Shown here: positions 18,450 through 20,392 of the stretch, one piece after another | How positions within the stretch are numbered: the stretch's first letter is position 1 | How the letters are laid out: each line of letters begins with the position of its first letter | Origin: an uncultured Pelagibacteraceae bacterium | GTDB taxonomy: Bacteria > Pseudomonadota > Alphaproteobacteria > Pelagibacterales > Pelagibacteraceae | DNA length: 64,000 bases | Assembly (NCBI GenBank): GCA_902579465.1 | Contig: CACHGV010000002.1 | Coordinates: 1-64,000 of the forward strand | Direction: 5' to 3' | Position numbers and translations under genes: made by a program | The notes under the pieces: generated by a model | Told to the model about the DNA's origin: nothing | The model's database searches: none | What the model saw: the letters and a program-made list of their open reading frames with translations, nothing else

Positions 18450-19163
18450 ATGGCAGGACATTCACATTGGGCAGGGATTAAACATAAAAAGGGAAAGGCA
18501 GACAAGCAAAGATCAGCCATTTTTTCAAAACTATCTAGGGAAATTACAGTAGCAGCAAAACTTGGAGATAAAAATCCAGATATGAATTCAAGATTAAGAT
18601 CTGCGATCCAGGCTGCTAGATCAGCAAATATGCCAAAAGATAATATTGAAAGAGCAATTGACAAATCATCAATAGCGGCAGACTCTAATTTTGAAAATAT
18701 AAGATATGAAGGATTTGGACCTGCAAAAACAGCTATAGTAATTACTACTTTAACGGATAATAAAAATAGAACTGCATCTAATTTAAGAACAATTTTTCAA
18801 AAAAATGGAGGAGGACTTGGCACACAAGGTTCAGCATCACATAATTTTCTTCAGCTAGGTGTTATAAAAATTGATAAAGGAGAAATTGATGAAGAAAAAG
18901 TTTTCAACCTAGCAACTGATGCTGGAGCTAATGATTGCATATTTCACAATAATTATTATGAAATTCATACAAATAATGATGAGATATATGATGTAAAAAA
19001 TCTATTGGAAAAAGAGATTTCTAATTTTATATCTACAGAAATTGAATGGGTTCCTATAAATAAAATTAATCTAAATGAGGAAGACAAAGAAAAAATGAAT
19101 AAGTTTTTGGAGATTTTAGAAGAAGATGATGATGTTCAAAATGTTTTTACAAATGCAATTTAA
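18450..19163 (+). CDS. YebC/PmpR family regulator or translation factor
   Basis: 237 aa with the unmistakable N-terminus MAGHSHWAGIKHKKGKAD and the DNIERAI and YEGFGP segments. Family members have been described as transcription regulators and, more recently, as factors that ease ribosome stalling on difficult sequences. It lies directly before the resolvase-like gene, the common yebC-ruvC order. Confidence 0.94.
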   Translation: MAGHSHWAGIKHKKGKADKQRSAIFSKLSREITVAAKLGDKNPDMNSRLRSAIQAARSANMPKDNIERAIDKSSIAADSNFENIRYEGFGPAKTAIVITTLTDNKNRTASNLRTIFQKNGGGLGTQGSASHNFLQLGVIKIDKGEIDEEKVFNLATDAGANDCIFHNNYYEIHTNNDEIYDVKNLLEKEISNFISTEIEWVPINKINLNEEDKEKMNKFLEILEEDDDVQNVFTNAI

Positions 19164-19172
19164 TTTAATTTT

Positions 19173-19661
19173 ATGTTAATTATAGGAATAGATCCTGGAA
19201 TAACTGGTGCAATTTGTTTTTTTGAAGACGGAGAATTGAAGGATGTAATTGATATGCCTACTATGGCATCAGGAAATAAAAATAAAAAACAAATTAATGG
19301 TAGCCAAATATTTAACGAAATATCTTTAAGAATTCAAAACTACAAATCTGAGAATATAAATGTAGTGGTAGAGCAAGTTTCTGCAATGCCTGGACAAGGT
19401 GTTACTAGTATGTTTAACTTTGGACAATCATTTGGAGTTTTAAAAGGAGTTTGTGCTGCAATGCAACTACCAATTTTTTTTGTAAGACCAGCCAAATGGA
19501 AAAAGCATTATGATTTAATAAATTCTCAAAAAGATTCGAGTAGAGTTAAAGCAATCGAAATGTTTCCTAAGTTTTCGTCAATTTTATCTCGAAAAAAGGA
19601 TACCAACAAAGCAGATGCAATATTAATAGCTAATTATCATCTAAATTCTCAAGAAAAATAA
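19173..19661 (+). CDS. RuvC-like (RNase H fold) endonuclease, phage-type
   Basis: 162 aa. Acidic residues of an RNase H-like active site are visible: D7 in IGIDPG, E67 in VVVEQVS, and D143/D148 in KKDTNKADAIL. The AMPGQGVTSMFNFGQSFG stretch (residues about 71-88) is typical of the RuvC-like subfamily found in phages and many bacteria, not of canonical RuvC. It occupies the slot of ruvC between yebC and tolQ, but ruvA and ruvB, which normally follow, are absent here. Probable role: cleavage of branched DNA. Confidence 0.75.
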   Translation: MLIIGIDPGITGAICFFEDGELKDVIDMPTMASGNKNKKQINGSQIFNEISLRIQNYKSENINVVVEQVSAMPGQGVTSMFNFGQSFGVLKGVCAAMQLPIFFVRPAKWKKHYDLINSQKDSSRVKAIEMFPKFSSILSRKKDTNKADAILIANYHLNSQEK

Positions 19662-19717
19662 ATATAGCTAGCCTTTATAGACAAATTCATGACACATTTT
19701 AGTGTGAAATCAATTGG

Positions 19718-20392
19718 ATGGACGCAGATATAACCTCCCAAGCAGTAGGATTAGCAAGTAATACAGATTTTTCAATTTTAAGTTTATTTTTGAGAGCAGA
19801 CTTTATAGTTAAATCTGTGATTATCATTCTAATCGCTAGCTCAGTTTATTCTTGGGCGATAATTTTTGATAAAATTATAATGTTTAGAAAAATTAATAGA
19901 GATTCCGAGGATTTTGAAGAAAGATTTTGGAAGTCTAAGTCTGCAGAAACATTTTACAATAGCCTGCCGACATCATTGGATAATCCAATGGCTCAATTAT
20001 TCAAAGATTCGATGCAAGCTGTTATGAAATCAAGATCAAAAACAAATATAAGCCAAAGACTCGAAAATATTTTAGAAGTAAATATCGAAAAGCAAATGAA
20101 TGTTGTAAACAACAAATTTACTTTTCTAGCAACAGTGGGATCTACAGCACCATTTATTGGATTATTTGGAACTGTCTGGGGAATAATGAATTCTTTTCAA
20201 TCAATTGCTATATCGAGAAATACCAGTCTAGCCATAGTGGCTCCTGGAATTGCTGAAGCTTTATTTGCAACTGCTTTAGGTTTATTAGCAGCAATACCAG
20301 CAGTAATTGCTTATAATAAATTTGGAAATGATTCCAAAAAATATTCTCAAAAACTAGAAAATTTTTCAAAAAGATTTATTTCAATAATTTAA
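19718..20392 (+). CDS. tolQ: TolQ, proton-channel subunit of the Tol-Pal system
   Basis: 224 aa of the TolQ/ExbB/MotA family, with one N-terminal helix (residues ~29-48) and two C-terminal helices, including the conserved TVWGIMNSFQSI and VAPGIAEALFATALGLLAAIPA segments (the latter split over about residues 174-195). With TolR it harvests the proton gradient to drive TolA. Start ATG at 19718. The usual ybgC thioesterase gene before tolQ is absent. First gene of tolQRAB-pal-cpoB. Confidence 0.93.
   Translation: MDADITSQAVGLASNTDFSILSLFLRADFIVKSVIIILIASSVYSWAIIFDKIIMFRKINRDSEDFEERFWKSKSAETFYNSLPTSLDNPMAQLFKDSMQAVMKSRSKTNISQRLENILEVNIEKQMNVVNNKFTFLATVGSTAPFIGLFGTVWGIMNSFQSIAISRNTSLAIVAPGIAEALFATALGLLAAIPAVIAYNKFGNDSKKYSQKLENFSKRFISII

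Follow-up and report, generated by a model that had tools for sequence, protein, structure and literature searches.

A predicted MOC1-type, phage-related Holliday junction resolvase in the ruvC slot of Pelagibacteraceae genomes that lack recognisable RuvABC

The ruvC slot beside yebC in Pelagibacteraceae holds a gene for a predicted stand-alone Holliday junction resolvase of the MOC1 type. The best reading of our results, which we hold with a probability of about 0.85, is that a single phage-type resolvase took over the position of RuvABC there and cooperates with RecG; within this reading we infer the cleavage, the role as main resolvase, the cooperation with RecG and the direction of transfer.

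The gene lies in the window, the 64,000-nucleotide stretch of DNA analysed here, which is contig C2 of a 1.11-Mb, 27-contig genome that is 78.6% complete. The gene order, named by reading, is yebC, a 9-bp gap, the nuclease gene, a 56-bp gap, tolQ, tolR, tolA, tolB and pal (Table 1), and the short gap after yebC suggests that the two genes may share a single transcript. The usual proteobacterial order has ruvA, ruvB and ybgC ahead of tolQ. All three are absent from the yebC-tolQ interval of the window, as the first-pass annotation had noted. The span that it gave, 19173-19717, was right at its start; the open reading frame stops at 19661 and the remainder is the spacer before tolQ. Because dN/dS was 0.037-0.063 (six relatives, 89-95% protein identity) and 57 alignment columns are identical in at least 49 of 50 Pelagibacteraceae resolvases, the open reading frame was counted as a real gene under strong purifying selection. 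Recent transfer or contamination as its source was disfavoured, since its GC content (0.299) matches that of the window (0.298) and the proteins of the family form one clade.

Table 1. Positions in the window of the predicted resolvase gene, its flanking genes and the codons for its putative catalytic acids.
Feature	Position	Strand	Basis
Predicted MOC1-type (RNase H-fold) Holliday junction resolvase, stand-alone, in the ruvC slot	19173..19661	+	162 aa; phmmer, phrog_1770, AlphaFold/Foldseek
yebC, upstream flank	18450..19163	+	Named by reading; TIGR01033 finds the equivalent in relatives
tolQ, downstream flank	19718..20392	+	Named by reading; 3' of the resolvase gene in 50/50 family loci
D7 codon, putative first catalytic Asp (NtMOC1 D116)	19191..19193	+	phmmer alignment; role of D116 as described in PMC7078210
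E67 codon (NtMOC1 E175)	19371..19373	+	phmmer alignment; PMC7078210
D148 codon (NtMOC1 E258)	19614..19616	+	phmmer alignment; invariant in 50/50

The protein was compared with the sequences of solved structures using phmmer. Plant MOC1 proteins made up the top nine of the 11 sequences, the tobacco enzyme NtMOC1 being the best (E 1.3e-15), and RuvC came next after MOC1 (E 0.011). A 67-row profile found nine PDB sequences at E values up to 0.01, all of them MOC1 (best 1.1e-28), and among the PHROGs families residues 1-159 matched phrog_1770, Holliday junction resolvase, at 2.4e-36. The AlphaFold model of the 162-aa protein as a monomer had a pLDDT of 93.6. When this predicted model was used as the query, Foldseek placed 12 MOC1 chains on top (E 6.7e-14 to 7.2e-12, TM up to 0.87) and the best RuvC at E 5.8e-8 and TM 0.66. 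VIA-align likewise placed nine MOC1 rows on top (Z 23.4 to 21.5), with 6kvo_A, a MOC1, at Z 23.4 and an rmsd of 1.8 over 159 residues, compared to Z 17.6 and an rmsd of 2.7 over 146 residues for the best RuvC. Identity to MOC1 in the structural alignments was 24-30%. On this combination of sequence and modelled structure, the protein is classed as a MOC1-type resolvase with a predicted RNase H fold, other than canonical RuvC.

A divergent, fast-evolving canonical RuvC, left in the slot after deletion of ruvA and ruvB, would share its slot and superfamily with RuvC, as the protein does. It would also account for the weak matches to the RuvC models of Pfam (PF02075, 18.9 bits, E 0.0015) and NCBIfam (NF000711, 24.7 bits, E 1.7e-5), and for a glycine at position 9 that resembles the GIDPG motif of RuvC. 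Both scores are, however, below the curated cut-offs of 22.2 and 163 bits, and in a tree whose RuvC rows were 12 canonical alphaproteobacterial proteins a 100/100 branch split the window protein from all of them. Against the weak RuvC match stand phage and viral relatives at 41-53% identity, the nearest structures are those of MOC1, and two genomes, G309 and G360, carry a MOC1-type gene in addition to a canonical RuvC on a different contig. We consider a derived RuvC very improbable. The first-pass annotation had spoken of a phage-type rather than a canonical RuvC nuclease, and the phylogeny with bacterial and phage RuvC-like proteins bears this out: the gene branches outside the 12 alphaproteobacterial RuvCs and its product stands among phage sequences.

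The catalytic tetrad of tobacco MOC1 is described as D116, D118, E175 and E258, its dimer helix as carrying G192, G196, G200 and A204, and its loop as carrying Y180 and D183; R149, K185, K218 and R250-K252 contact the DNA, and the substitutions R149D, K185D and K218D abolish cleavage (PMC7078210). For maize MOC1, the loss at K229 is described as severe (PMC11183143). In the phmmer alignment the tetrad falls on D7, G9, E67 and D148, so that three of the four acids are present: D118 is replaced by G9, which is glycine in 50/50 family proteins, and E258 by D148. The residues of the dimer helix align with G84, G88, G92 and A96 at the same glycine spacing; R149, K185, K218 and R250-K252 align with K38, V77, K110 and R140-K141-K142, and maize K229 aligns with K120. 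Residues D7, G9, E67, D148, K38, K110, K120, K141, G84, G88 and G92 are invariant in the 50 family proteins and K142 is kept in 49; R140 is the only aligned acidic, basic or dimer-glycine position kept in fewer than 49. The loop that follows E67, with the motif AMPGQGVTSMFNFG (residues 71-84), aligns with the base-recognition loop of MOC1. Y180, D183 and K185 are absent from it and M72, Q75 and V77 are found instead, M72 and Q75 being invariant in 50/50. Residues 72, 75, 77 and 81 are the same in all 67 rows of the alignment of relatives, which is in part an effect of searching with this motif. The catalytic core and dimer helix thus look retained in the alignment, and G9, V77 and the loop are unlike those of the plant enzyme. 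Because the equivalent of D118 is G9 and the four-acid tetrad is incomplete, the protein is assigned to a wider MOC1-type family, apart from plant-type MOC1. Because the loop residues have changed, reading of a cytosine in the way of MOC1 D183, and with it cytosine-dependent cutting, would not be expected here.

The distribution of the gene was determined in 117 Pelagibacterales genomes, 64 from the family of the window (f1, Pelagibacteraceae) and 53 from family f2; 75 of them are at least 90% complete. A relative of the window protein was found in 61/64 f1 genomes and in 0/53 f2 genomes. Two of the three f1 genomes that were missed (G040 and G113) also have no yebC match, and in the third (G097) yebC lies at a contig edge. 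All 50 f1 loci have the order yebC-resolvase-tolQ, with or without ybgC. In five of these about 500 bp separate the resolvase gene from tolQ, and the four that were read (L039, L046, L047 and L051, from the three sister genera g2-g4) have a ybgC-like gene there, directly after the resolvase gene and overlapping it by 8, 20 or 50 bp; L048 has the same gap. In the genus of the window there is no room for ybgC before tolQ. Because the sister genera keep a ybgC-like gene beside the resolvase gene, the loss of ybgC is an event separate from that of ruvABC, and the earlier view of ybgC as part of the same event does not stand. The slot order also agrees in 79 of 80 named Pelagibacteraceae loci, some of which come from genomes shared with the 50. 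In the exception, L157 (CACACV010000056.1), yebC and a split tolQ are found in inverted order around the resolvase gene, and this contig is probably an assembly chimera. Proteins with 98% identity occur in Pelagibacteraceae (SAR11) records such as AG-900-G22, and the best 80 cellular-contig matches to the window protein all belong to Pelagibacterales.

Neither RuvC (PF02075) nor RuvA_N matched any of the 117 Pelagibacterales genomes, including the 75 that are at least 90% complete, and RuvC was also without a match in the genome of the window itself (0/1). RuvB_N matched 116/117 genomes, 113 of them above its low cut-off of 27 bits; it also matched all 14 control genomes, archaea among them. 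The best single match in the order reached 33.9 bits, and the matches listed span only part of the model. RuvB is about 340 aa long, and the listed RuvB_N frames, of 284 aa or of 419 aa and more, include none of RuvB length. Eight of the loci were identified by reading as ClpX (L001, L003, L006, L007 and L008) or DnaX (L002, L004 and L005). The RuvB_N matches were consequently rejected as true RuvB, these eight by their identity and the others by score, coverage and frame length. Since the genome of the window is incomplete, the absence of the ruv genes rests on its relatives, ten of which are single contigs at 99-100% completeness (G001, G003, G005, G007, G009, G011, G013, G015, G020 and G026). 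Incompleteness as the cause of the missing genes was rejected, since the 75 more complete relatives are also without RuvC and RuvA. RuvABC therefore appears to have been lost across SAR11, RuvA and RuvC being without a match and RuvB not recognisable. The proposal of the first-pass annotation that a stand-alone nuclease took the place of the whole resolvasome is supported: neither ruvA nor ruvC was matched elsewhere in the genomes, nothing there could be recognised as ruvB, and the protein falls outside the canonical RuvCs of the tree.

Relatives of the window protein are common in viral sequences. They were found in 115 of 50,697 phage records of INPHARED (best 42% identity), and at least 588 IMG/VR stretches encode them, 80 of which were used. 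Neither yebC nor tolQ occurred, within the flanks covered, at any of 160 viral-contig loci (80 MOC1-type and 80 Hjc-like). Outside Pelagibacteraceae, three of 286 genomes of the class match the window protein, with E values of about 1e-18 to 1e-21, at the loci L243 (the slot of family f119), L242 and L244. The last two are MOC1-type genes in the larger alphaproteobacterial genomes G309 and G360, which keep canonical RuvC. L242 was read as lying near a recombinase-like gene and may sit in a mobile element.

The Pelagibacteraceae resolvases form one clade in three trees (100/97, 100/99 and 100/99). With RuvC as the outgroup they are placed among phage sequences, the nesting node having a support of 85/66; when RuvC was left out of the tree, a single branch simply divided Pelagibacteraceae from the phage rows. 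The phage contigs in these trees were retrieved using the motif itself, and the cellular rows are alphaproteobacterial. A phage origin of the resolvase gene is likely, and transfer would have run from phage to host. The f119 slot protein groups with the viral contig L190 in the three trees (97/84, 97/92 and 94/86). The trees separate it from Pelagibacteraceae, although the AU test did not reject a joint clade of the two (p-AU 0.119), and for this reason an independent gain of the MOC1-type gene in f119 is put forward only as possible.

The other sampled family of the order has a different protein in the same place. A yebC above the cut-off was found in 8/9 f2 genomes searched, and in all eight loci a protein of 123-127 aa is encoded between yebC and tolQ. 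Four of these slot proteins exceed the PDDEXK_15 cut-off of 27 bits (30.6 to 33.7 bits) and fall short of the Pfam Hjc cut-off of 21.1 (12.8 to 16.9 bits), and for three of them phrog_244, a family of RusA-like Holliday junction resolvases, was matched with E values near 1e-20. On these profile matches, the f2 slot protein is assigned to the PD-(D/E)XK nucleases, a predicted fold unrelated to that of the MOC1 type. Relatives are encoded by 111 of 194 IMG/VR stretches; among the 50,697 phage records the sole match is in Roseobacter phage CRP-810, at 51% identity. A Holliday junction resolvase is described in almost all CRP-810-type phages, one of which is a prophage in a marine SAR11 (PMC11288001). 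With a model of L253, a viral f2-type relative, the 14 best Foldseek chains were all resolvases of the Hjc kind, at weak E values of 0.05 to 0.2, and a profile of the f2-type proteins gave no relevant match among the PDB sequences.

Beyond the order, RuvC was found in 263 of 289 alphaproteobacterial genomes. Three of the 26 without a match are Pelagibacteraceae, and yebC was sought in 12 of the other 23 as well as in the RuvC-keeping controls G309 and G360, where RuvC adjoins yebC and RuvA. Five of the 12, from four families, have a resolvase-type gene beside yebC and no RuvA match (G146, G165, G289, G276 and G233). In G233 (f119, 80% complete) a MOC1-type protein (phrog_1770, 7.7e-22) is followed by ybgC and tolQ. 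The slot proteins of G146 (f32; an assembly of one contig of 1,410,127 bases) and G276 (f142) have 113 and 97 aa, respectively, share 68% identity and precede tolQ. Both belong by profile to phrog_2002, a Holliday junction resolvase family (E 1.6e-8 and 2.5e-10, respectively), and neither matches a Pfam nuclease; the phrog_2002 match and a sequence pattern recognised by reading point to putative PD-(D/E)XK nucleases. Two phage relatives of the f142 protein were found at 45-47% identity. In G165 and G289 (f51) a 168-aa slot protein lies above the PDDEXK_15 cut-off (2e-21); that of G165 is 44% identical to a protein of the jumbo phage PA5oct, and 13 phage records match. The f51 gene is followed by tilS (L357 of G165 and L332 of G289) and, in the longer G165 stretch, also by ftsH. 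The tolQ-to-ybgF stretch is absent between the f51 slot nuclease and tilS, as if tol-pal had been excised.

BLAST matches between the slot proteins of f2, f32/f142 and f51 were absent or marginal (best 3.6e-4, f142 with f2, in a set of nine sequences); the CRP-810 phage protein matched the f142 slot protein at 1.5e-5. The idea that the f2 and f51 proteins are unrelated families was rejected, since both pass PDDEXK_15 and match phrog_244, which makes them subtypes of one family. All the slot occupants match phage "Holliday junction resolvase" families, and they fall into about four sequence types, with two unrelated folds between them: MOC1-type (Pelagibacteraceae and f119), short PDDEXK_15/Hjc-like (f2), smaller Hjc-like (f32 and f142) and the 168-aa PDDEXK_15 protein (f51).

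For the remaining seven of the 12 genomes (G313, G249, G323, G204, G135, G148 and G286) no slot nuclease was seen. G323, G204 and G135 retain a RuvA match, and RuvC was therefore probably missed there or lost in a gap. In G204 and G148 yebC is close to the end of its contig, in G135 yebC itself was not matched, and G286 was read as having no slot nuclease. G313 (L335) and G249 (L327) have a match to neither RuvC nor RuvA, and no nuclease was read beside yebC. We consider it probable, at a lesser confidence than the displacement within SAR11, that streamlined Alphaproteobacteria have replaced genes at the position after yebC again and again, the whole of RuvABC being exchanged each time for RecG plus a phage-type resolvase (four or more sequence types, in two unrelated folds), and that the cutting preference shifted as a result in these AT-rich genomes. 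Counting f2 and f51 as one family leaves these odds as they were, since the site still holds two folds that are unrelated.

RuvAB normally loads RuvC and moves the junctions, and RecG can also migrate junctions. In the displacement that we propose, a ruvC-ruvA-ruvB block between yebC and ybgC/tolQ would have been replaced in place, in the ancestor of Pelagibacteraceae, by one phage-type gene for a MOC1-like enzyme. This enzyme would act as a homodimer whose loop opens the Holliday junction and whose D-E-D metal site makes symmetric nicks in two strands, requiring no loading by RuvAB; RecG would supply branch migration, like in the combination of RusA and RecG in E. coli. This pairing of RecG with a stand-alone dimer is proposed because RecG is kept and because RusA, an E. 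coli prophage resolvase, can replace RuvABC given RecG (PMC5055574). Of 32 genomes searched for RecG, 31 have it in full length, among them that of the window (G000:C1:109805-111661, 620 bits) and all five from outside the order in which the slot holds a nuclease; the one miss was G027, which is 87% complete. The scores of 26 of these 31 lie below the NCBI cut-off of 659.4 bits, and so does that of the RuvC-keeping G360 (645.7).

The recG search also returned helicases resembling Mfd (310-386 bits) in 15/16 genomes outside Pelagibacteraceae and in 0/16 Pelagibacteraceae. The frames in f2 are short, with 789-804 aa compared to 1011-1197 elsewhere. All these helicases are regarded as Mfd-like on the basis of length and score. 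Transcription-repair coupling may have been lost in SAR11.

The slot gene could instead be a domesticated phage gene with another job, such as nucleoid segregation or the trimming of branched DNA, in cells that have no dedicated resolvase or are served by YqgF/RuvX. Plant MOC1 is linked to chloroplast nucleoids, and the resolvase activity of the slot protein is predicted from sequence and model. Weighing against the displacement reading are the incomplete tetrad, D148 in place of E258 and the changed loop, in which V77 is found at the position of K185; the K185D substitution abolished cleavage by tobacco MOC1. The solved RuvX structure 7ess bears a title describing a Holliday junction resolvase that cleaves branched DNA, and YqgF is described as nearly ubiquitous in bacteria (PMC1193525). 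As of 2005, however, the same source lists YqgF without demonstrated resolvase activity; it co-occurs with RuvC/RecU and therefore would be no simple stand-in for them (PMC1193525). With a different job it would also be hard to account for the nucleases of other phage resolvase families that occupy this slot where RuvC and RuvA gave no match, unless the need common to these lineages is junction cutting, and the gene is under strong purifying selection. We regard another job as unlikely, if less so than a derived RuvC, and in-place displacement of RuvABC remains our preferred reading.

The closest known systems each share a part of this arrangement. The chloroplast MOC1 enzymes (tobacco 6kvn/6kvo and maize 6is8/8kfr) are the nearest solved relatives, with aligned acids, basic residues and dimer glycines, but D118 is a glycine and the loop is changed in the SAR11 protein, which is encoded by a bacterial chromosomal gene. 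The phage resolvases of phrog_1770 (epsilon15, PaV-LD and Stenotrophomonas phage Bhz63, whose resolvase is annotated as cd22992 MOC1) belong to the matching family, whereas the SAR11 gene is chromosomal, outside a phage module and in the yebC-tolQ slot family-wide. Canonical RuvC, in its yebC-ruvC-ruvA-ruvB cluster, has in common with it the slot, the predicted RNase H fold and the likely substrate; the SAR11 protein lies outside RuvC by cut-off and by tree, ruvA was not found and ruvB was not recognisable. RusA acting with RecG is also a stand-alone phage-related resolvase, but it is normally unexpressed in E. coli, whereas the SAR11 gene would be a fixed replacement. The fold of RusA differs from that of MOC1-type resolvases. 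In Firmicutes a non-homologous resolvase, RecU, is likewise found in place of RuvC, with RuvAB kept and RecU near ruvAB in only two genomes (PMC1193525); in SAR11, by contrast, the searches detected neither RuvA nor, where it was sought, RuvB, and the incoming gene occupies the former ruv position. That source also notes that junction resolution may fall to proteins encoded by prophages in certain genomes (PMC1193525). The SAR11 enzyme is of a type already known, in what would be a new role and at a new location; what surprises is that nucleases of different folds appear to have entered one site more than once.

Loss of ruvABC in SAR11 was reportedly described by Viklund in 2012. Our literature search found no account of an in-place replacement of the resolvase in SAR11, and Viklund 2013, on HIMB59, mentions neither ruv, nor resolvase, nor repair. 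A core SAR11 cluster is named "putative Holliday junction resolvase" in PMC3686209, which from the part available could be either the slot gene or YqgF. SAR11 is described as recombining heavily and as having no MutSL, RecBCD or RecF in PMC12374537, the available part of which mentions neither Holliday nor resolvase.

RuvAB and RuvC/RecU are counted among the core recombination functions that nearly all bacteria share (PMC1193525), and SAR11 is numerically dominant in the nutrient-poor surface ocean (PMC3686209). If our reading is right, SAR11 would leave the final step of recombination to a phage-type enzyme, the closest relative of known structure being one that works in chloroplasts, and the repeated use of one slot would make the minimal cellular need for junction resolution directly testable.
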